The translations under genes and the position numbers were made by a program. Shown here piece after piece: positions 2,825 to 26,711 of a DNA stretch of 64,000 nucleotides. Origin of the DNA: Thiocystis violascens DSM 198 (GTDB taxonomy: Bacteria > Pseudomonadota > Gammaproteobacteria > Chromatiales > Chromatiaceae); the NCBI RefSeq assembly GCF_000227745.2, contig NC_018012.1:372001-436000 (forward strand), in the 5' to 3' direction. Position 1 is the stretch's first letter, and each line of letters opens with the position of its first letter. Below the pieces are notes generated by a model. It had not been told where the DNA came from. It did not search any database and saw only the letters and a program-made list of their open reading frames with translations.

Positions 2825-2861
2825 AAGGGCGTTGTCATGATCATGCACACGAGGGCTTGAG

Positions 2862-4886
2862 ATGATTCAATTCAATCTTTGCACCGACCTCCTGTCTCAA
2901 GTGTACGCAGGCGCATCTGGCGAGACGGTTTCCCTGGAAACGCCGGAAGACGGTGGATTCATGGGCGCCCTTGGCACGCAATTGCAAAATATCCTGGTCG
3001 AATGGGGGGAGGATCCGGCCGAGATCGCGGCGCTTGACGGTCCGTCGCTCCTGGCGCAATTCCTGGCGCTCGCACAGGACCGCTTGCCGCCCGCCGACGA
3101 GCCGAGAATGACCGCTCAACCCCCGGCGTCGCTCCGTGCGGCGGCATCGAGCCCGCCGGAGATGCCTACGGATCTGTTGAACAAATTGCTGGAATCGTCG
3201 ATCGCCGGCGCATCGCCGGCGAGCGCGCAAGGCGCCGCCACGCTGTCGGAGATGCGTTCCGAAGGCGCCGGGCAGTCCGAGTCGCCGACGGCGATGCCCG
3301 CGGATCCGCTTCGGCGGTTAGTGCAGCCAACGCTGGCGGATGGCGTGGATCTTCCCCCGACGGCCGCCGCCTTCGCGCGTTCGCTGGAGTCAGAAGAAAC
3401 CGCGGCGTCGACGGCGATTCCCGCGGATCCGCTTCGGCGGTTAGTGCAGCCAACGCTGGCCGATGGTGTGGATCTTCCCCTGGCGACCGCCGCCCTCGCG
3501 CGTTCGCTGGAGTCAGAAGAAACCGTGGCATCGACGGCGATGCCCGCGGATCCGCTTCGGCGGTTAGTGCAGCCAACGCTGGCCGATGGCGTGGATCTTC
3601 CCCCGACGGCCGCCGCCCTCGCGCGTTCGCTGGAGTCAGAAAATACAGCGCCATCGACCGCGATGCCCGCGGATCCGCTCCGGCGGTTAGTGCAGCCAAC
3701 GCTGGCGGATGGCGTGGAAAGCGCCGATCCGACGGTCGCCGCCCTGGCGACTCCAATGGAGTCAGGAAAAACCGGGCCGCCGACGGCGGTTCCGGCGGAT
3801 CTACTCCGGCGATTGTTGCAGCCAACGCCAGCGGATGGCGTGGAAAGCGCCGGCCCGAGGGCAGCCGACCTTGTGAATCCGCTGGAATCAGAAGAAACCG
3901 CACCGCTGACGGCGATTCCCGCAGACTTGCCGCAGCGTTATTTGCAGCCGATGCCAGGGGATGGCGTGGCGACTTCCAAACCAGCGACTGCCGCTGCTCT
4001 GGTGAAATCTGGCGAGATCGTGCCGGCCTCGCTGCCGCAGGCGTTTCCCGCAGAGGCGTTAAGGCAGTGGTTGCCGTCGATTCCCGCGGATGACGTTGCG
4101 GCCATCCCAACGACCGCCGCCCTGGCGGATTCCGGTGAGTCCGGTCAGGCATCGATCCTGAAAGCAACCGCTCCGATCTGGTTGAACCAGTTCCCGCCGG
4201 GAGCGCGCGATACTGAAATCGGTGCGGCGCAGTCCGGAAACCCGCTGGCTGGAGAGGGGCAGGGTTTGCCGATGGTCTTCTCGACCCGTGGCGCCCTGCT
4301 CGATCTGGCACTGAAGGCGACGCACGAAACGGAGCGCCTCGCTGTCCGGGGCGCGTCCGACGAAGCGGCTGAGTTGCCCGAAACGGGGTTGCCCGCGACG
4401 AGCGTGACCTCGGTTGGGACTCAAAGCGGTTCCGGGCCGGCGCGGATATTCGATCTGTCCAATGTGTTGCGGCCCGGCGGCGAGACGGGCCTCGCGGAGC
4501 AGGTGAAATGGGTCATGCGGTCCGGTCTGGGGACGGCCGAGTTAACCCTGCACCCGCGGAGTCTGGGCGCCATGGAGGTGCGGGTGACCATGGAGGCCGA
4601 TCAGGCGCATGTCCAGTTTCTGTCGCCTCACCCGATCGTGCGCGAGGTGCTGGAAGCGGCACTGCCGCGGTTGCGGGATGCGCTGGCCCAGGATGGTTTG
4701 TCGCTGGGCAACGTGTCGATTTCCGAGCAAGCCCCCGAAAGACGCGGCGAACAGGATCGGGAGCGGGCTGGCAGCGCCCAAAACCGCCAGGATTTTGACG
4801 GTTCTGTCGGGGATGGTGTCGAGTCTCCGGATCTCGCCGGCAGCACCCTGTCCGCCTTAGCCGGGAGACTGGATTATTTTATTTGA
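2862..4886 (+). CDS. fliK: Flagellar hook-length control protein FliK (first copy)
   Basis: A 674-residue protein. The C-terminal about 110 residues form the hook-length control domain (LAEQVKWVMRSGLGTAELTL, then RSLGAMEVRVTME and VREVLEAALPRLRDAL), which in the family contacts FlhB and switches export from hook to filament subunits. The N-terminal two thirds act as a ruler and are poorly conserved. Here they hold about seven tandem units of 41-43 residues built on PADPLRRLVQPTLADGV (see separate repeat entry). It lies between fliJ and fliL. A second fliK-like gene lies at 24651-26711 on the other strand, so this one is taken as the main flagellar copy by position. Confidence 0.93.
   Translation: MIQFNLCTDLLSQVYAGASGETVSLETPEDGGFMGALGTQLQNILVEWGEDPAEIAALDGPSLLAQFLALAQDRLPPADEPRMTAQPPASLRAAASSPPEMPTDLLNKLLESSIAGASPASAQGAATLSEMRSEGAGQSESPTAMPADPLRRLVQPTLADGVDLPPTAAAFARSLESEETAASTAIPADPLRRLVQPTLADGVDLPLATAALARSLESEETVASTAMPADPLRRLVQPTLADGVDLPPTAAALARSLESENTAPSTAMPADPLRRLVQPTLADGVESADPTVAALATPMESGKTGPPTAVPADLLRRLLQPTPADGVESAGPRAADLVNPLESEETAPLTAIPADLPQRYLQPMPGDGVATSKPATAAALVKSGEIVPASLPQAFPAEALRQWLPSIPADDVAAIPTTAALADSGESGQASILKATAPIWLNQFPPGARDTEIGAAQSGNPLAGEGQGLPMVFSTRGALLDLALKATHETERLAVRGASDEAAELPETGLPATSVTSVGTQSGSGPARIFDLSNVLRPGGETGLAEQVKWVMRSGLGTAELTLHPRSLGAMEVRVTMEADQAHVQFLSPHPIVREVLEAALPRLRDALAQDGLSLGNVSISEQAPERRGEQDRERAGSAQNRQDFDGSVGDGVESPDLAGSTLSALAGRLDYFI
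3291..4160 (+). repeat. 123-bp tandem repeat inside fliK
   Basis: Unit starts (codon before the Met/Ile/Val-Pro-Ala-Asp motif) fall at 3291, 3414, 3537, 3660, 3786, 3912 and 4041, so the period is 123 bp for the first units and 126-129 bp later. The first four units are nearly identical at the DNA level over the PADPLRRLVQPTLADGV segment, while the last ones have diverged. All changes keep the frame. A weak earlier unit may start near 3163 (MPTDLLNKLLESS). This is an array growing or shrinking by whole units in the ruler part of FliK. Confidence 0.93.
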
Positions 4887-10554: not shown

Positions 10555-12659
10555 CGACCGTGAGCGACCGTCTCGGCGGTCTTCGCCAGCTTGGTCTCGG
10601 CGTGCCCGTGATGCTGATGGCGCTGCTCGCCATGCTGGTGCTGCCGCTTCCGCCATTCGCGCTCGATCTGCTTTTCACCTTCAACATCGCCTTGTCGCTG
10701 ATCGTGGTCATGGTGGCCGTCTATACGCCGCGACCCGTCGAATTCGCCGCCTTTCCGACAGTTCTGCTGCTGGCGACCCTACTGCGTCTGGCGCTGAACG
10801 TGGCCTCGACCCGCGTCATCCTGCTCTATGGCGGCGAGGGGACGGACGCCGCCGGCCAAGTCATCAAAGCCTTCGGCGAGTTCGTCCTGGGAGGCAATTT
10901 CGCCATCGGTCTGGTGGTGTTCACGATCCTGGTCATCATCAATTTCGTGGTGGTCACCAAGGGCGCGGGGCGGGTGTCCGAAGTCAGCGCCCGCTTTACC
11001 CTGGACGCCATGCCGGGCAAGCAGATGGCGATCGACGCCGATCTGAACGCGGGTCTGATTTCGCAGGAAGACGCGCGCACGCGCCGCGCGGACGTGGCCC
11101 AGGAGGCGGATTTCTACGGCTCCATGGACGGTGCCAGCAAATTCGTGCGCGGGGACGCGGTGGCGGGAATCCTGATTCTCTTCATCAACATTCTTGGCGG
11201 CATCGCGATCGGGACGACCCAGCATGGCATGTCGTTCGGGGATGCCGCGAATGTCTATGTCCTCCTGAGTATCGGCGATGGTCTGGTCGCGCAGATTCCG
11301 GCGTTGCTGCTGTCGTCCGCCACCGCCATCGTCGTCACTCGGGCCAACACCCCCCAGGACATGGGCCAGCAGTTGACCAAGCAACTGCTCTCCAATCCCC
11401 GCGTGCTCTACGTGACTTCGGGTGTCATCGGAATCCTCGGGGTGATCCCGGGAATGCCGAATCTGGTTTTCCTCGGACTGGCCTCGATGCTGGCCGGTGG
11501 CGCCTATCTACAGGGACGCAAACCGCCCGAACCCAGTCCCGATGAGGTGGAACAACTGCCCCCGGGCATGGAACTCCCCGCGCCGGAAGATCGCGATCTG
11601 TCCTGGGACGATGTTCCGCCGGTCGATCTGGTCTCGCTGGAGGTCGGTTATCGCTTGATCCCGCTGGTCGATCGCAGCCAGGATGGGCAACTCATGGGCC
11701 GGATCAAGGGCATTCGACGCAAGCTCTCGCAGGAATTCGGGTTTCTCATTCAGCCAGTGCATATCCGCGACAATCTGGAGCTGGGCCCGAATCAGTATCG
11801 CATCGCGCTGCTGGGGGTGAATGCCGCCGAGGCCGAGGTCTTCCCGGATCGGGAACTGGCGATCAATCCCGGACAGGTCTTCGGGACCGTGGCGGGGACA
11901 CCAACCAAGGATCCGACCTTCAATCTGGACGCGCTCTGGATCGACCCGGCCGATCGGGAATCCGCGCAGGGCGCCGGTTACACCGTGGTGGATGCCGCGA
12001 CGGTCATCGCGACCCATCTGTCGCAGGTGTTTCGGGATAATGCGCATCGTCTGATCGGCTACGAGGAGGTCCAGCACCTGCTCGACCAACTGGCGCGCCG
12101 CTCGCCCAAGCTGGTCGAGAATCTGATTTCCTCCAAGGCCCTGCCGCTTGGGGTCGTCCTGAAGGTGCTGCAGAATCTGCTGGCGGAACAGGTGTCCATC
12201 CGGGATTTGCGGACCATCGCCGAGATCTTGGCGGAACGCGCGGTCAAGAGTCAGGATCCCGCCACCTTGACCGCGGCGGTGCGGGTCGCGCTCTCCCGCT
12301 CCATCGTGCAGGATCTGATCGGTCCGGAGGACGAATTGCCCCTGATCGCCTTGGATCCGGCGTTGGAGCAGATTTTGCATAAGTCGCTGCAAGGCAGTCA
12401 GGGCGAAACCATCGGGATCGAGCCTGGGCTGGCGGAGCGGGTGCAGCGGTCGGTGACCGATGCCGCGCGACGTCAGGAAACGGAAGGAGCGCCCGCGGTG
12501 CTGGTGGTGGCTCCGGAGATTCGTTCCTGGATCGCGAGCTGGCTTCGCGGCGCGGTGCGCAATCTGACTGTCATGGCCTTCACCGAGATCCCGGATAACC
12601 GGCGTATCCGGGTCGTTGCCACCGTGGGCAAGGGCGATACCGCGCAGGCGCGGGCATGA
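10551..12659 (+). CDS. flhA: Flagellar export protein FlhA
   Basis: A 702-residue protein with about eight N-terminal membrane helices (to about residue 320), including the highly conserved VVFTILVIINFVVVTKGAGRVSEVSARFTLDAMPGKQMAIDADLNAGLI loop region, and a large cytoplasmic domain that docks chaperone-substrate complexes and forms a nonameric ring. Full length. It overlaps flhB at the start and is followed after 22 bases by flhF. Confidence 0.97.
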   Translation: MTTVSDRLGGLRQLGLGVPVMLMALLAMLVLPLPPFALDLLFTFNIALSLIVVMVAVYTPRPVEFAAFPTVLLLATLLRLALNVASTRVILLYGGEGTDAAGQVIKAFGEFVLGGNFAIGLVVFTILVIINFVVVTKGAGRVSEVSARFTLDAMPGKQMAIDADLNAGLISQEDARTRRADVAQEADFYGSMDGASKFVRGDAVAGILILFINILGGIAIGTTQHGMSFGDAANVYVLLSIGDGLVAQIPALLLSSATAIVVTRANTPQDMGQQLTKQLLSNPRVLYVTSGVIGILGVIPGMPNLVFLGLASMLAGGAYLQGRKPPEPSPDEVEQLPPGMELPAPEDRDLSWDDVPPVDLVSLEVGYRLIPLVDRSQDGQLMGRIKGIRRKLSQEFGFLIQPVHIRDNLELGPNQYRIALLGVNAAEAEVFPDRELAINPGQVFGTVAGTPTKDPTFNLDALWIDPADRESAQGAGYTVVDAATVIATHLSQVFRDNAHRLIGYEEVQHLLDQLARRSPKLVENLISSKALPLGVVLKVLQNLLAEQVSIRDLRTIAEILAERAVKSQDPATLTAAVRVALSRSIVQDLIGPEDELPLIALDPALEQILHKSLQGSQGETIGIEPGLAERVQRSVTDAARRQETEGAPAVLVVAPEIRSWIASWLRGAVRNLTVMAFTEIPDNRRIRVVATVGKGDTAQARA

Positions 12660-12681
12660 ACGAGCGAACAGGAGCGGACAG

Positions 12682-13896
12682 ATGAATGTACGGCGATATC
12701 GGGCACGGGACATGCGGGATGCGATGCGGCAGGTGCGCGAGCAGCAGGGCGCGGACGCGGTTATTCTTTCCAGCCGCCGGGTCGATGGGATGCTGGAAGT
12801 GGTTGCCGCGCTGGAACCCGCCCCGGCGGCCGATTCCGGCGGTTCAGCGAGCAAATTCGTCCACACCCTCCCCGTCGATCCCGAACTGGCCGCCATGCGT
12901 CGGGAATTATCCGATTTGCGCACGCTCCTGATGCAACAGGGCGCCTTGAGCGAACGCGATCAATGGGCGGTTCGCCATCCCCTGGCCGCCGAGTTCGTCG
13001 AGCGTCTCCAGAAATGCGGCTTCAGCGACAAATTGGCGCGCAGTCTCGCGGGCAGTATTCATGAAGACTCGACGGCCGAGACCGCCTGGTCGCGTCTGCG
13101 CACTCGCCTGTCGGCCTCGATTGCCACGGCCGCGCCCACCGTCCTCGAACAGGGTGGTATGCTTGCGCTGGTGGGATCGACCGGCGTTGGCAAGACCACG
13201 ACCCTGAACCGTCTCGCGCTGCGTCAGATCCGGCGGATGGGCCGCGATTCGGTGATTCTTGCCACGCTTGATCGGCAGCGCATCGGCGCGTACAAACAAT
13301 TGCAGGCCTTTGGTCAGATGGCCGGAATTCCCGTCATGCTGTTGGAAAGCGAACGGGATCTGGTCGCCTTGTCGAACCGTGAGGGAGACGGAAAGCTGGT
13401 GTTGATCGATACCGAGGGACAGGCCGCGCGCGATGCGGCCGAGCGCAATCTGTTCGCCAAGGTGCGTCACCAGATCCCGCTCGAGACCTGGTTGGTGATC
13501 CCGGCAACCCATCAGGCGATGGTGTTGCGGCAAGTGTTGCAGTCGTTTCAGGGGAGCGAACCATCGGCGTTGGTTTTGACGAAGGTTGACGAAGCGGAAC
13601 AATTGGGGGAAACCTTGTCCGTTCTCCTCGAACAGCGTTTGGGTCTGGTGTTTTACAGCGACGGACAGCGGATCGACGAGGACTTCCATAAAACGGATAC
13701 CACCTGTCTCACGCGCCTCGCGCTCCAGGAGCCGGCCCGGCCCGCCGGGATCCTCTTCGAGGACCACGTCGCTCCCGCCGAGCCCGTGCCGCTGAACCGA
13801 GCGCCTTTTGCCTCGCCGCCTCGGAAGCCGCGCGAGACCATGGTCTTGGAGTCGGTGTTGCCTTTCAGGAAAACCGTTCATGCAGCCTCCCATTAG
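12682..13896 (+). CDS. flhF: Flagellar biosynthesis GTPase FlhF
   Basis: A 404-residue SRP-type GTPase that marks the pole for flagellar assembly. The N-terminus MNVRRYRARDMRDAMRQVREQQGADAVILSSRR is typical. The G1 loop GSTGVGKTTTLNRLA is near residue 168, with DTEGQ in place of the usual DTAG and TKVDEAEQLG as the G4/G5 region. ATG 12682 was chosen because GGAGCGG lies upstream and the family N-terminus begins there. The longer frame would run back into flhA. The 3' end overlaps flhG by 17 bases. Found with flhG and fliA in polar flagellates. Confidence 0.95.
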   Translation: MNVRRYRARDMRDAMRQVREQQGADAVILSSRRVDGMLEVVAALEPAPAADSGGSASKFVHTLPVDPELAAMRRELSDLRTLLMQQGALSERDQWAVRHPLAAEFVERLQKCGFSDKLARSLAGSIHEDSTAETAWSRLRTRLSASIATAAPTVLEQGGMLALVGSTGVGKTTTLNRLALRQIRRMGRDSVILATLDRQRIGAYKQLQAFGQMAGIPVMLLESERDLVALSNREGDGKLVLIDTEGQAARDAAERNLFAKVRHQIPLETWLVIPATHQAMVLRQVLQSFQGSEPSALVLTKVDEAEQLGETLSVLLEQRLGLVFYSDGQRIDEDFHKTDTTCLTRLALQEPARPAGILFEDHVAPAEPVPLNRAPFASPPRKPRETMVLESVLPFRKTVHAASH

Positions 13897-15877: not shown

Positions 15878-16468
15878 TGACTTCGAGATCCGAACTGTTG
15901 GTTATTGTGGCCAATCGGGCATCCTAGATGTCCGGCAAGGAATCATCGATGGACAATGACGAAGAAAGCAAGGCATTCGAACTGAGCCTGGCGAGGCAAT
16001 TGGTCGAGCATCTGGAAGCGGGCCATGGAGATCGGGCCGCCGAGGTGGTCCGCCAGTTGAGGATTCCCTACGAACGAGAACTCTTCGAGGAACTCGGCAA
16101 GCTGACACGCGATTTGCACGAGGCGCTGAACAGTTTTCGTGGCGATTCCCGGCTGGTGGAACTCACGCGCGACGAGATTCCGGATGCGAAGGAACGCCTC
16201 GATTATGTCGTCACCATGACGGAGCAGGCGACTCACCGGACGCTCAACGCGCTCGACGAGGGGATGCCGATCGCGGAATCTCTCCATGCCCGCCTGCTGG
16301 AACTCACGGACACCTGGAACCGGTTTCGCCAGCGCGAGTTGTCGGTCGATGAATTCCGCGAATTTGCCCGCGCCCTGGATGTCTTTTTCGCCGCGAGCGG
16401 CGAAGAGACCGAGCGTTTGCGGTCGTTGATGTCCGAAGTCATGATGGCTCAGGATTTTCAGGATCTTA

Positions 16469-17662
16469 GAGGGTGTAGACAAAAATAATTGAGCTGCTAT
16501 TTGTATACCAGTCTACAACTGAGCTGGTGTGCGCTGATGTCGAAAGCTGGTCGTCCCCCCAAGATTCACGAGGCGGAGCAAGCGGTATTGCGTCAAATTG
16601 TCACGGATCGCCCGACCTCCACGCTGTCAGAGATTGCCCGGGAACTCGCGGCACGGACGGGAATCGAGGCTCATGAAGCAACGATTCGCAAGTCCTTGCG
16701 GGAGGCGGGCGTCACGCGCCTCCGGGGCGAGAGTGGTCTCGAGGCGCAAGCGCGCGCAACGCCGCGTCGGTATGGGTATACGGATGCGCATCGTCGCCAC
16801 GACCCCGACCAAAGCTACCCAAGTTGTCTGACCGATGCGGAGTGGGACTTGGTCGCCGCTCTCTTTGAGATGCCGGGCGGGCGGGGTCAACCGCCCCGCG
16901 TGTCGCGCCGGAGCATCCTGGAGGCGTGTTGCTACGTGGTGCGCACGGGGTGCGCGTGGCGGATGCTGCCGCACGATTTCGCGCCTTGGCAGAATGTCTA
17001 CAAGACGTTTCGCCGTTGGAGTGCGGCTGGGAAGTTTGAGCAGATGCATGATCGACTGCGGGGGCAATGGCGCGAACGCGAGGGGCGTGAGATCGCGCCG
17101 ACGGCGGCGGTGCTGGATGCGCAATCGACCCGCGGCTCGCCGCAGGGTGGACCGAGCGGCTTTGATGCGGGCAAGCAGGTCAAGGGGCGCAAGCGCAGCC
17201 TGGTGGTCGATACCTTGGGGTTCGTGTTGGCGGTGAGCGTGGTCGCGGCCAATCTTCAGGACCGCGATGCCGCCTCGGGCGCCGTCGCTGACGCGGCCGC
17301 CAAGTACCCCCAGATCAACACGCTGTTTGTCGATAGCGCCTACGCCGGTCAATTTGCCCAAACCACCGAGCAGACCCACGCGATCCGCGTGGAAGTCGTG
17401 CGCCATCCAGCCAACAAAAGCGTTGGCTCCTGGCACGTGGACGGGGCGCCTGACCGAGTGGTGATCGCCAACGCCGACGGCTTCGTTCCGCTGCCGAAGC
17501 GCTGGGTTGTCGAGCGCACCCATGCGTGGAATGAGCGTGCCCGTCGATTGATCATGCATCATGACCGTCTGCCAGCGGTCTCCGAAACCTGGGTTTGGCT
17601 GGCGGAGGCGCGCATCCTGCTGCGGCGGTTGACCACAACGGTTTGATTTTGTCTACACCCTC
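16469..17662 (+). mobile_element. IS5-family insertion sequence, copy 1 (in cheZ)
   Basis: The element is 1194 bp with perfect 16-bp terminal inverted repeats GAGGGTGTAGACAAAA at 16469-16484 and the complement at 17647-17662. It is flanked by the direct repeat TTA at 16466-16468 and 17663-17665, a 3-bp target duplication of the TNA type known for IS1031-like members of IS5. One transposase gene fills it. Copy 2 (44018-45211) encodes the same 385-codon frame residue for residue, and copy 3 begins at 63749. Confidence 0.96.
16537..17646 (+). CDS. IS5-family transposase with N-terminal helix-turn-helix domain
   Basis: A 369-residue DDE transposase from ATG 16537. An upstream TTG at 16489 would add 16 residues and is less likely. 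Residues about 5-65 form a helix-turn-helix region (GRPPKIHEAEQAVLRQIV, then TIRKSLREAGVTRLR) like that of IS630-type transposases. Then comes the IS5 N-terminal domain (LTDAEWDLVAALF to WQNVYKTFRRW) and the catalytic domain with Asp in VLDAQSTRGS, Asp in FVDSAYAGQF and Glu in WVVERTHAWNERARRL. The Asp, Asp and Glu of the catalytic triad are all present, so the enzyme looks active. Confidence 0.95.
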   Translation: MSKAGRPPKIHEAEQAVLRQIVTDRPTSTLSEIARELAARTGIEAHEATIRKSLREAGVTRLRGESGLEAQARATPRRYGYTDAHRRHDPDQSYPSCLTDAEWDLVAALFEMPGGRGQPPRVSRRSILEACCYVVRTGCAWRMLPHDFAPWQNVYKTFRRWSAAGKFEQMHDRLRGQWREREGREIAPTAAVLDAQSTRGSPQGGPSGFDAGKQVKGRKRSLVVDTLGFVLAVSVVAANLQDRDAASGAVADAAAKYPQINTLFVDSAYAGQFAQTTEQTHAIRVEVVRHPANKSVGSWHVDGAPDRVVIANADGFVPLPKRWVVERTHAWNERARRLIMHHDRLPAVSETWVWLAEARILLRRLTTTV

Positions 17663-17940
17663 TTACCGGGCAAATCATCCGCCGCGTCATCCGCCTGGTG
17701 CACGAGGTCGAGGAAAATCTCGTCGGACTGATTCGCTTGTCCAGCGCTCGCATGGAGCCTGGCAAGGCGGCGAAGCAGGCGGCGCTGGCGAAGGACGCGG
17801 AACATGCCGGTCCGCAGAGTCACGGTCCCATCGTGCCCAATACTCAGGATACGGCTTCGGATGTCGTCAGTGGGCAGGACGACGTGGATGATTTGCTTTC
17901 CAGCCTGGGCTTCTAGCCCGCTGACATCAGGTGATTTTGC

Positions 17941-22900: not shown

Positions 22901-23383
22901 ATGACCGCAGAAGACACGAACGTGAATGGCAAGGGAACTTCTTCGTCGTATGTGACGTTCAGTCTGGAGGACGAGACCTACGCCATCGATGTATTACAGG
23001 TACAGGAAGTCCTGAAGCTCACCGAAATCGCACCGGTTCCCGGTGTGCCCGATTACATTCTCGGCATCATCAATCTGCGTGGCGACGTGGTCACCGTTAT
23101 CGATGCCCGCCGGCGCATGCTGCTCCCCGAGCGCGCGCCCGACGATGCCTCCCGGATCGTCATCATCGATGTCGATAATCAGAATGTCGGCATCCTGGTC
23201 GATTCGGTTGCCGAGGTCGTGCGGATACCGCCGGATGCGGTCGATCCCGCGCCCGCGGTCGGTAACGATCAGACGAGCCGCTTTATCCTGGGCGTCAGCA
23301 GTACCGAGGAGGGACTGACGATCCTGATCGATCTCAATAAATTGTTGTCCGACGATGAGTGGGCGGCGATTCGCGAACGTTAG
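22901..23383 (+). CDS. cheW: Chemotaxis coupling protein CheW
   Basis: A 160-residue single-domain CheW that bridges receptors and CheA. Signature segments are FSLEDETYAIDVLQVQEVL, PGVPDYILGIINLRGDVVTVIDARRR and VGILVDSVAEVVRIP. The start at 22901 has CGAGGA six bases upstream. It is followed by the ERR-repeat gene. Confidence 0.96.
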   Translation: MTAEDTNVNGKGTSSSYVTFSLEDETYAIDVLQVQEVLKLTEIAPVPGVPDYILGIINLRGDVVTVIDARRRMLLPERAPDDASRIVIIDVDNQNVGILVDSVAEVVRIPPDAVDPAPAVGNDQTSRFILGVSSTEEGLTILIDLNKLLSDDEWAAIRER

Positions 23384-23458
23384 CCGTTCCTCCGCGGCAG
23401 TTGCACCGGCGTCATCGTGTCGTCAGCCCCGGCGATGCGGAACGCCCAGGAGATTTCC

Positions 23459-23860
23459 ATGCGCGACTTGATCGGGCCGCTCCGGCCAGTCCAGCCGCAA
23501 ACCTCCTCGCGGCCATCGGGCGACGAGCAGGATCGGAGCTTGGCGCGTCAGGTTACCGCGGCTCGCCCGCGAAAGAATCGTGGCGATCTGCGTGATCGGC
23601 AGCGTCGCTCGGGTGAACGCCGTCAATTCGAGCGTCGCTCGGTCGAGCGTCGCGCGGACGAACGCCGTCTGGACTCGCGTCTCTCGGAAGAGCGGCGTCT
23701 GGAAGAGCGGCGCTCGGACGAACGGCGGGCCGGGGAGCGGCGTTCGACGGAGCGGCGTTCGTTCAAGGGTCGATTGGGTCGCAGCAATGGAAAGCGGGAA
23801 TCTGGGCCGCCATCGTCGTCGACCGAAAGACGCCGAGGATTGATCGATGACTATGCCTGA
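23459..23860 (+). CDS. Unrecognised Arg/Glu-rich protein with ERRxx pentapeptide repeats
   Basis: A 133-residue protein whose function I do not recognise. The start at ATG 23459 has AGGAG upstream. Its first about 50 residues are Pro/Arg/Gln-rich and it opens MRDLIGPLRPVQPQ. From 23615 to 23764 ten 5-residue units follow, nine of form ERRxx (ERRQF, ERRSV, ERRAD and so on) and one altered (SRLSE). The end GRLGRSNGKRES...RRGLIDDYA is basic. There is no membrane segment. A five-residue period fits neither a normal coiled coil nor a known repeat fold that I can name. It lies between cheW and the DUF2802 gene in the same direction, 75 and 15 bases away, so a link with the polar chemotaxis cluster is possible but is inference only. 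Confidence 0.72.
   Translation: MRDLIGPLRPVQPQTSSRPSGDEQDRSLARQVTAARPRKNRGDLRDRQRRSGERRQFERRSVERRADERRLDSRLSEERRLEERRSDERRAGERRSTERRSFKGRLGRSNGKRESGPPSSSTERRRGLIDDYA
23615..23764 (+). repeat. 15-bp coding repeat (ERRxx), ten units
   Basis: Ten units of 15 bp, each beginning GAA/GAG then CGN CGN, except the fifth (TCGCGTCTCTCGGAA). Codon choice varies between units (CGC, CGT, CGG), so the array is not a fresh slippage product. The protein pattern has been kept while the DNA diverged, which suggests selection on the peptide. Confidence 0.85.
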
Positions 23861-23875
23861 ACGAACGCGTGTTGA

Positions 23876-24328
23876 ATGAACGAAAATCTGCTGTTTGGTG
23901 CGGTCCTGGCGCTTTTTGTCCTGATCCTCCTCGCCATGCTGATGGCTGGCGTTGCCCTGAAGTCCATCTCGACTCTGCGGCGCCAGATTCGGGAGATCCG
24001 ACAGGATCATCAACGTCAAAATACGTCGCTTCTGGCATTGCATGGGGCTATGAAGATGATCTCCGAGGATGTGATCAGCCATGGTCAGGCGCAGTCCTCG
24101 GTCAGGCGAACCCTCGAACATCTGGCCGATCAGCAGAACGAGATGCGTCTGCGCGATGTCGACGATGGACTCTATCCCCAGGCCATCCAACTGATCCAGG
24201 AGGGACGCGGCCGCGAAGAGGTCCGTAAACTCTGTGGCTTGACAGACTCCGAGGTCGGTCTGCTGTTCAGTCTGCATGGCCAGGGGCTCGGTGTCGGAGC
24301 GAACTCGACAGCTTCAACGCGACGTTGA
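23876..24328 (+). CDS. DUF2802 membrane-anchored protein
   Basis: A 150-residue protein with an N-terminal transmembrane helix (LLFGAVLALFVLILLAMLMAGVAL), a helical middle (STLRRQIREIRQDHQRQNTSLLAL), and a conserved C-terminal helix-turn-helix-like segment YPQAIQLIQEGRGREEVRKLCGLTDSEVGLLFSLHG. This matches the DUF2802 family, usually found right after cheW in gammaproteobacterial polar flagellar clusters (for example PA1465). The function is unknown. It is the last + strand gene before a convergent block. Confidence 0.85.
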   Translation: MNENLLFGAVLALFVLILLAMLMAGVALKSISTLRRQIREIRQDHQRQNTSLLALHGAMKMISEDVISHGQAQSSVRRTLEHLADQQNEMRLRDVDDGLYPQAIQLIQEGRGREEVRKLCGLTDSEVGLLFSLHGQGLGVGANSTASTRR

Positions 24329-24336
24329 GCTGTGCC

Positions 24337-24654
24337 TTATTCCTGTTGCGCCGATTCTCGATCGAGAAGTGTCGGTTTGCGCGGGTCAATCCCTTCTAGC
24401 ATGAAAATAAAGGCGAGGACTTCGGCAACCGCGATGTAGAGGTTCCTGGGGATCTCGTCGCCGATCGGAATTTGCGCCAGCGCTTCGACCAGAATCGGAT
24501 CGGATTGCAAAGGAATCCCCTGTTCCCCGGCGATGCGCAGAATTTCCTCGGCGGTGAGTCCCTTGCCCGCAGCGGTGATGCGAGGTGCGTTCAGGCGATC
24601 CCATTGCAGCGCAACGGCCTGTGGGACGGCGTCTTGACGCTGGTTTTTCGTCAT
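24337..24654 (-). CDS. FlhB C-terminal domain paralogue (export switch-like)
   Basis: A 105-residue soluble protein aligned with the part of FlhB after the NPTH cleavage site. PQAVALQWDRLNAPRITAAGKG matches the HYAVAIAY...APHLLAKG region, and DPILVEALAQIPIGDEIPRNLYIAVAEVLAFIF matches the FlhB end. It has no membrane domain and no NPTH motif. It overlaps the fliK-like gene upstream by ATGA. Such FlhB-like proteins (FhlX/YscU C-terminal family) are known beside a second fliK in several proteobacteria. In the family they can stand in for the FlhB C-terminal fragment, but the role here is inferred. Confidence 0.85.
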   Translation of the reverse strand: MTKNQRQDAVPQAVALQWDRLNAPRITAAGKGLTAEEILRIAGEQGIPLQSDPILVEALAQIPIGDEIPRNLYIAVAEVLAFIFMLEGIDPRKPTLLDRESAQQE

Positions 24655-26711
24655 GCCCGCTCGCTCACCATGGGCGGGCGCCGGGCGGGTTGCGTGCCGC
24701 CGCCGGGCCGATGGCTTGCGTGCAGGCTGACGACCTCGATCTTTCGGTCCAGCAACTGTTGACGCAAGGTCTCCAGATGTTCTCGCAGGATGTCGGCGCC
24801 GGTCGCGTTCTCTGCCTGAAGACCCGCATTCAGCCGATCCGAGCGAAGACTCAGATTGATCGACAAAGGACCCAGGCGGGGTAAATTCAGCCTGATCCGC
24901 ATGCTCCAAACGTCGTCCTCGGATTGATCGCCGCGGTTCTCCCGTCGAATATCGGCTTCCAGCGCCGTTAAACCCGACGGTGTCTTGAAGGGTAATTCCA
25001 GGATCCATTGCGGCTGATCGGTTCCCGCTTCCAGGCTTCGCAACTGTTGAGTCACCACGTGTTTAATCATGGCGTCGACTTCCTTGGCCAAGATCTCTGG
25101 CGCGGTCGTTCGCGAGTGAGGCGTTTCGTCGTGAAGGCGAGGCGAGGCTGGAGGCGGCTCCGGCGCGACTGATCGGGCTTTAGGAGAGGCGGGGTCTGGG
25201 GGCCGCTCCGAATGGTCCGCGCTGTTTGGCTTCGTCGGTACCGGGGGTAAGGCGTTCGGCGAGGTTTCCGCTGGCACGACGACGGTCCGCGTCTGCGGCA
25301 TCGGTCCCGAGGACGATGGCGACGGCGACTGATCGACGGTGCGGAGCTGCTCGGCGAGACGCTGCAATTGCGCCTTGAGATCGAGCGAGCGATCGCGGGC
25401 GCACGCGGGGTGCGCGTTCGTTTGCGCCATCAGCGCCTCAAGCCAGATGCCGGATTGCGTCATCGCGGTGTACCGGCGCTTCGGAGCGATCCGTTCCTGT
25501 GGCGTGGTGGAGCGGGATGGAAGGTTAGGAGAGGGGGGCGGGGCGGTCCCCGGCGCGCGTACTTGGGATTGTGCCGGACGCGCCGCTGGAAGAGTCGACC
25601 GATCTGCGAGGCGTGGCAACTGTGCCTGGAGATCGAGCGAGCGATCACCGACGCGTGCGGGGTTCGATGCCTCCCGCGCCACGAAGAGATCAAGCGAGCG
25701 CGCGGATGGCGTGAGCGGGCGCTCTGGGGCGATCCGTTCCTGTGGCGTGGCAGGGCTGGATGGAAGGTTAGGGGAGATGGGCGGCCGCGCCGGATTGCCG
25801 ACAGGCTCGGCCGGTTTTGGGGGCAGGGCGGTCGGTGGGGCACTCTCCGAAGCGAGTGACTGAAGTGGTGCCGGACGCGCCACTGGAAGAGTCGACCGAT
25901 CGGCGAGGCGGATCTGTTCGGCGAGGCGCAGCAATTGCGCCTTGAGATCGAGCGAGCGATTATTAGAGTCTGCGGGGTGCGCGGTCGTCTGCGCCACCAG
26001 CGCCTCAAGCCAGATGCCGGATTGCGCGATGGCGGAGGACAGACGCTTCGGGTCGACCAGATCCTTCGTCGTGGTCAAGCCTCCAACGAGGGTTTCGATC
26101 ATGCGTTGGGTTGCGACAATCGTGGTGGATGGCTCGATCGTTCGCTGGATTGCGTCAGTCCTTGGAGACGTCTCTGCCGGCGGCCGGGCGGGGCATCCAT
26201 CGGGACTCTTCAGTCGAGCGACCCAACCCTGAAGCGTGGTCGTGAGCGGCCGGGATTGAGGAAGGTTTTGGCGGAGTTGAACATCCAGCCATTCGCGCGA
26301 TCCAGCGGCCGGGGATGCAACCTTCGGAGCCGGGGCCGGTTCGGTCCGCGTTCCGATGCGCAGGATCAGCGTTGGGCTGACGGAGACAACCTCCGCCTTC
26401 GTGCGTAAGGCATCGACGGACGTCGAGCGCGTCTCGGTCATCGTGTCCGCTTGGCGCGCTGGCGGTTCTGGCAAGGGCGCGGTCAACTGGACGCGCGTGG
26501 TCGCCGACCAGGGCGCGTTGCCTTCCAGGGGGCGCAGGCGGGCCTCGATGAGCGTCGAGGAAAGCCTTTGCGCCAATTGGATTTCCAACGACATTCCAAC
26601 CTTGAGGGAGAGTGGGGGGCCGGAATTCCCCGTCTCGGAAACGTCCGCTCTAGCGGACGGATTGAGTGCGCTGTTTCGTCCGGGCAAGACCGATGGGATA
26701 AACTCGCTCAT
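24651..26711 (-). CDS. Second FliK-like hook-length control protein
   Basis: A 686-residue protein. The last about 130 residues match the C-terminal FliK domain (WSMRIRLNLPRLGPLSINLSLRSDRLNAGLQAENATGADILREHLETLRQQL), and the middle is Pro/Ala/Arg rich. Internal repeats are visible: SGIWLEALVAQTTAHPA followed by RSLDLKAQLLRLAEQIR occurs once around 25920-26040 and once around 25340-25470, and a shorter RSLDLQAQL copy lies between. It shares an operon with the FlhB-like gene and follows ycgR/flgN in the minus-strand block. It differs from the fliK at 2862, so one may set hook length and the other may have another substrate. Confidence 0.83.
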   Translation of the reverse strand: MSEFIPSVLPGRNSALNPSARADVSETGNSGPPLSLKVGMSLEIQLAQRLSSTLIEARLRPLEGNAPWSATTRVQLTAPLPEPPARQADTMTETRSTSVDALRTKAEVVSVSPTLILRIGTRTEPAPAPKVASPAAGSREWLDVQLRQNLPQSRPLTTTLQGWVARLKSPDGCPARPPAETSPRTDAIQRTIEPSTTIVATQRMIETLVGGLTTTKDLVDPKRLSSAIAQSGIWLEALVAQTTAHPADSNNRSLDLKAQLLRLAEQIRLADRSTLPVARPAPLQSLASESAPPTALPPKPAEPVGNPARPPISPNLPSSPATPQERIAPERPLTPSARSLDLFVAREASNPARVGDRSLDLQAQLPRLADRSTLPAARPAQSQVRAPGTAPPPSPNLPSRSTTPQERIAPKRRYTAMTQSGIWLEALMAQTNAHPACARDRSLDLKAQLQRLAEQLRTVDQSPSPSSSGPMPQTRTVVVPAETSPNALPPVPTKPNSADHSERPPDPASPKARSVAPEPPPASPRLHDETPHSRTTAPEILAKEVDAMIKHVVTQQLRSLEAGTDQPQWILELPFKTPSGLTALEADIRRENRGDQSEDDVWSMRIRLNLPRLGPLSINLSLRSDRLNAGLQAENATGADILREHLETLRQQLLDRKIEVVSLHASHRPGGGTQPARRPPMVSERA

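Follow-up and report, generated by a model that had tools for sequence, protein, structure and literature searches.

FliK has an N-terminal ruler that is secreted through the export gate. Its last five residues have an important part in export switching; a suppressor mutation, A405V, lies in the last residue and neither inhibits nor helps FlhB binding, and an effect on FlhA was suggested (PMC10965912). In another proposal the same five residues flip the switch and contact the C-domain of FlhB (PMC13344023), and a further study reported that FlhB is bound by the FliK core domain while the tail controls FlhB activity (PMC6972891). Because PMC10965912 points to FlhA and PMC6972891 places FlhB binding in the core, the partner of the FliK tail is disputed; these statements are those of the accessible portions of the three papers. 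The second described system is FipA, the DUF2802 protein, which binds FlhF and is needed for normal polar flagella (PMC11620751). The accessible text of that paper states that FipA occurs only alongside FlhF and FlhG, and it contains no mention of the small protein described here.

The stretch of DNA analyzed here (the window; 64,000 nucleotides) is part of a 5.02-Mb one-contig genome, and the closest named relatives of its FipA are from Thiocystis (91–95% identity). The original prediction noted a reading frame with ERR repeats between cheW and a DUF2802 gene, and Pfam matches to the two neighbors (PF01584 and PF10975) bore out this placement. The features of the locus are as follows.

2841–4886, +: fliK frame, with the end GRLDYFI
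12616–13896, +: flhF frame, upstream in the same cluster
22901–23383, +: cheW (PF01584, E 1.6e-38)
23448–23452, +: AGGAG ribosome-binding site, 6 bases 5' of the ATG
23459–23860, +: long (ERR) form, 133 aa, of the small cheW-fipA protein, with homologues in the same position and pN < pS
23459–23512, +: conserved N-terminal stretch MRDLIGPLRPVQPQTSSR; family consensus M.(E/D).I..P..P(V/I)..P from alignments
23594–23773, +: ERR pentad array, residues 46–105, predicted to be one continuous helix
23843–23857, +: C-terminal tail IDDYA, with the pattern of the FliK C-terminus
23876–24328, +: fipA (DUF2802; published FlhF-interacting protein; PF10975, E 1.4e-20)
24337–24660, −: FlhB C-terminal-domain homologue (flhB_rel), a convergent neighbor
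24651–26711, −: second FliK-like protein, with the Flg_hook domain and lacking the tail

The ERR array

The window protein has the ten ERR triplets originally noted, all in a single register of five, with nine inside the array and the tenth at residue 123. Its ten same-register [ED]RR triplets compare with a maximum of five across 20,000 shuffles. The codons are diverged, as had also been claimed: five different codon combinations occur over the nine array triplets, which rules out recent slippage. The register was kept in a 16-sequence alignment (40–54% identity to the window protein), and an interruption after residue 70 was common to 15 of the 16 sequences, L034 being gapped there. Because the register and the interruption are common to several genera, we conclude that the array is old; codon diversity and the conserved register together exclude a recent repeat expansion.

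AlphaFold predicted one helix for residues 46–105 of the window protein (block pLDDT 48–83) and no structure outside the array except a short helix at residues 23–29, and a short form of the family was predicted to be wholly unstructured. The period of five spreads arginine around such a helix, as the original prediction held (arginine moment, 0.05 per residue). A single α-helix domain is a charged helix that is stable as a monomer. The array resembles single α-helix (ER/K) linkers in its predicted long charged helix and in the 22 basic-to-acidic pairs at i+3 or i+4 in the window protein; when set against the classic rules for such linkers, it differs in having a period of five and in the rarity (1) of acidic-to-basic pairs at i+4. 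The label of pentapeptide-repeat protein proved misleading in the Pfam sense. Pfam pentapeptide repeats have the form A(D/N)LXX and fold as a β-helix, whereas the window protein and 16 ERR members had no Pfam match and a helix is predicted for the array.

Membership in a known Pfam or NCBIfam family was rejected, because no family model covers the protein. When 40 short members were searched against Pfam, only three families were matched, with a single weak match each (best E 0.0042), and NCBIfam gave no match to the window protein or to these 40. Identity with FliK, FipA, or CheW/ParP was likewise rejected, as Flg_hook (PF02120), PF10975, and PF01584 were all unmatched in the window protein, the 40 short members, and the 16 ERR members. 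A PDB search gave a single chance-level match (E 0.9), and a Foldseek search with the L088 read-through model, in which only FipA folded, gave weak HTH-like matches only (best E 0.71). The small protein was not described anywhere in the literature found, subscription journals being largely outside that search. It is a widespread protein of a well-studied gene cluster, yet it has no Pfam or NCBIfam model.

Distribution and anatomy of the family

The surveys were anchored on the downstream gene, DUF2802, rather than on the repeat, and the sequence preceding DUF2802 was then read. DUF2802 was present in 69 of 116 genomes of the window's taxonomic family, 68 of which were read (G043 was left out). 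In 61 of these 68 loci DUF2802 was preceded by a small ORF on the same strand whose tail resembles [VIL]D.[YF][AV], clearly contradicting the idea that no relative might have a homologue at this place. In the class, 122 of 274 genomes passed the DUF2802 cut-off; of the 121 other genomes over the cut-off 120 were read (G258 was left out), and the tail rule found the small ORF in 65 of the 120 loci. A profile added 6 more genomes, including one (G225) in which the small gene is on another contig. The order survey found the gene in all 11 new loci read, out of 79 matching genomes, and the phylum survey gave 50 of 150, with 15 over the cut-off.

The profile, built from 40 short members, was run against the 274 whole genomes and matched 62, 53 of them already found by the tail rule; the rule favors the tail, and the profile also contains it. 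In 58 of the 62 the match was the gene immediately before DUF2802, in the same orientation, and two of the remaining four follow cheW at contig ends. The collected members number 134 (58 + 11 + 65), after three incomplete family copies (L046, L053, and L056) were dropped. Five members found by the profile have no clear tail pattern (G159, ending IDEQV; G324, IDEHV; G406, IDEVV; G166; and G246), and some found by the tail rule are doubtful, such as L200 (IDIFV).

The usual form has 51–80 residues (about 60 in Thioalkalivibrio), with a proline-rich start, typically MAEI.DI.PL.PVWPTRP, a charged and variable linker whose sequence is little conserved, and a tail of the pattern [IVL]D[DE][YF][AV]-COOH, typically HIDEYA. 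In 21 of the 134 proteins an array of ERR or DRR pentads fills the linker; these proteins have 112–143 residues, and all belong to the window's taxonomic family (purple sulfur relatives), the named carriers including Thiocystis, Thiobaca, Thiorhodococcus, Imhoffiella, and Allochromatium. The other 113 lack the array, having fewer than four [ED]RR. These comparisons indicate that the small protein has short conserved ends, one on either side of a charged linker that can be replaced, and that the ERR repeat is its least general feature; in the ERR form the linker was exchanged while both ends stayed fixed.

In all 20 pairs tested, which included ERR and short forms, pN was below pS. Pooled, uncorrected pN/pS for these pairs was 0.195 for the first 20 codons, 0.369 for the middle, 0.211 for the last 12, and 0.076 for the last six. 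Both ends are under purifying selection, and these values place the strongest selection on the tail. Ribosome-binding sites precede many of the starts. To judge from the homologues, polar-flagellum gene clusters encode a conserved and unnamed small protein, of which the ORF in the window is the long form.

The gene appears in several states of decay in Chromatium: C. okenii DSM 169 has none, C. okenii LaCa has a frameshifted copy, and C. weissei has a 79-residue form.

The C-terminal tail and FliK

The small protein ends in a FliK-type C-terminus. The pattern [VILM]D.[YFW][AVIL]-stop ends 25 of 30 FliKs (the best 30 of 149 genomes with a match) and also the FliKs of E. coli (GVDIFA) and the window (GRLDYFI). 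It fits 129 of the 134 small proteins, although a related tail rule had served to collect most of them. As a control, 169 non-overlapping ORFs of 150 residues or more were taken from the window and from stretches of E. coli; the pattern ended two of them, both FliKs, against an expectation from letter frequencies of 4.8e-4 per protein. The stricter pattern [VIL]D[DE][YF][AV] ended only 2 of the same best 30 FliKs. The third tail residue is free in FliK and is D or E in 127 of the 134 small proteins, whose usual last residues are A and V.

A search of 18 genomes for DNA encoding [IV]D[DE]YA-stop gave 13 matches. Seven were at the cheW-fipA locus, one of them the frameshifted Chromatium copy; the others were one FliK, two copies of one further frame, two proteins from one unnamed family (about 102 residues), and one ERR protein elsewhere. 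This last protein (G004; L261 1504–1902) is away from cheW-fipA and beside a putative DNA polymerase I gene. The proteins of about 102 residues end in GIDDYA and GVDEYA (L264 1504–1809 and L265 1504–1812), lie away from flagellar genes, and had no Pfam or NCBIfam matches.

Besides the last five residues, the small protein and FliK share a disordered stretch before the tail, which is described for FliK in the accessible portion of PMC6972891. They differ in that the small protein lacks the Flg_hook core domain, has 51–143 residues rather than several hundred, and mostly has D or E as its third tail residue. The small protein may work as the end of FliK does, which would make it a carrier, not described before, for a switch tail that is already known.

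The reading that we tentatively favor is that the tail binds the target of the FliK tail. The tail would dock on the export switch, most likely on the FlhB C-domain or on the FlhA ring on which FlhB acts, and the small protein, as a soluble molecule dedicated to carrying this tail, would hold the switch, compete for it, or help to trip it close to the pole machinery of FlhF and FipA. A second partner would be held by the proline-rich start, and the ERR array of purple sulfur bacteria would serve as a basic helical spacer, about 9 nm long at 0.15 nm for each of its 60 residues. This proposal is supported by the occurrence counts of the small protein in the family and class, by the pooled pN/pS values, by the tail pattern shared with FliK, and by the accessible portions of the papers on the last five residues of FliK (PMC10965912; PMC13344023). 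It is weakened by the third tail residue, free in FliK and mostly D or E in the small protein, by the disputed partner of the FliK tail, by the absence of the small gene from 29 of the 85 genomes in which one contig carries both FlhF and DUF2802, and by the low confidence of the conserved ends in both read-through models with FipA.

In the window the FlhB C-terminal-domain homologue and the second FliK-like protein (24337–26711, −) face fipA. Among the 104 loci whose sequence reached far enough past fipA, 29 had a match to an FlhB-like gene. This gene occurred in 10 of 22 class loci with the small protein versus 2 of 7 without, and in 13 of 66 versus 4 of 9 loci in the window's taxonomic family, with the partial copies L046, L053, and L056 scored as lacking the small protein. 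The FlhB-like neighbor was rejected as a specific partner because it does not track the small protein; this result and the occurrence of the tail in a protein away from flagellar genes argue against too simple a reading of tail docking.

If the tail works like that of FliK, the hook-to-filament switch of polar flagella would gain a missing regulator. Fluke of Salmonella was the only comparable accessory factor found in the accessible literature. We consider doubtful the broader proposal that a second, soluble switch tail of the FliK type is encoded with the FlhF/FipA pole genes in many polar flagellates, where it would lock or co-trigger the export switch and so couple pole choice to export order, comparable to the role proposed for Fluke, and with its reach in purple sulfur bacteria set by the basic 9-nm helix. 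The small protein also makes it possible to test cleanly which partner the last five FliK residues recognize, since a natural carrier of 55 residues is much more tractable than FliK itself.

Gene neighbors and alternative functions

The small gene and fipA are gene partners, with fipA directly downstream on the same strand; FipA differs in being a membrane protein with a DUF2802 domain, which the small protein lacks. The suggestion that the gene is linked to the cell pole gained support, both from the neighbor being FipA, a published FlhF partner (accessible text of PMC11620751), and from loci in which the small gene is beside flhF-flhG-fliA or stator genes without an adjoining cheW. The order is flhF-flhG-fliA-small-fipA in G202 and G324; of the other clusters without an adjoining cheW, four have stator genes preceding the small gene and one has motD and a parC-like gene. 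In G220 and G420 the small gene is near flhF-flhG, and these genomes had no DUF2802 matches and only three weaker CheW-domain matches each. When the gap between flhF and fipA was below 6.5 kb, too close for a full chemotaxis cluster, the small gene was found in 8 of 21 genomes (7 firm, the genome of the doubtful L200 being counted among the 8); with a long gap it was found in 48 of 64. Because the gene is kept in loci without an adjoining cheW, and in G220 and G420, its occurrence tracks the polar flagellum more closely than chemotaxis, and its reading as a chemotaxis protein is weakened.

In the FlhF survey the best 8 candidates per genome were scored. The one-contig genome G192 (L250) has the small gene, fipA, and a chemotaxis cluster, with no FlhF over the cut-off, which runs counter to the published statement on the occurrence of FipA. 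The same picture was seen in G237, which is 81% complete.

It is possible, if on the unlikely side, that the small protein is a pole-machinery adaptor, with one end on FipA or FlhF/FlhG and the other on a landmark such as HubP/FimV. The tail would then occupy a carboxylate-clamp pocket, for example in the FimV TPR domain, and the ERR array would lie on the FimV acidic region; HubP/FimV are described with a cytoplasmic part that is acidic and a TPR domain at the C terminus (accessible text of PMC12918733). The 58 of 62 profile matches directly before DUF2802, the gene order in G202, and the retention of the gene near flhF-flhG in G220 and G420 are consistent with an adaptor. The structure prediction with DUF2802 that had been proposed did not help this case, as the AlphaFold read-through models gave no confident contact with FipA, and both G192, which has the small protein and fipA with no FlhF over the cut-off, and the 29 of 85 genomes lacking the small protein argue against it.

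We consider it unlikely that the small protein is a chemotaxis-array factor that binds CheW, CheA, or ParP, with the ERR array having replaced a lost ParC/ParP in the purple sulfur clade. Where cheW was matched, the small gene usually comes after it, and parC was missing from all 11 ERR loci with enough upstream sequence; among the short-form loci it was missing from 10 of 51. Nor did parC show up in 14 named ERR loci that had a motD match. The ERR genomes G000, G057, and G033 had distant ParA relatives but no close ParC relative, the best identity being 36–37% versus 62% for the ParC of G192. However, this ERR/parC pattern is confined to one clade, and thus to few independent events, which makes it a lead rather than a test, and Thiospirillum (L227) lacks parC and has the short form. 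Seven clusters have the small gene before fipA with no cheW beside it, and G220 and G420 lack both an adjoining cheW and fipA; CheW may lie elsewhere in some such genomes. The small gene occupies the same part of the cluster as the ParP/ParC pair, but its product has neither a CheW-like nor a ParA domain, and parC and the small gene coexist at 41 of 51 short-form loci.

Binding of nucleic acid or acidic membrane by a basic helix, which the original prediction had raised, is very unlikely to explain the family. The net charge of 16 ERR forms is +12 to +19, with arginine evenly distributed around the predicted helix; that of short members is −5 to +10. Because the array is absent from 113 of the 134 proteins and the short members have these charges, such binding cannot be the general role of the family. 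Finally, high-GC DNA gives long frames on both strands, but a spurious frame is almost certainly not the explanation here, given pN below pS in both forms, the ribosome-binding sites, and homologues with conserved ends at a conserved place.

Elsewhere in the window, cheZ is broken by an insertion element (16468–17665), which has 17-base inverted ends with TTA on each side and contains a transposase frame at 16489–17646.
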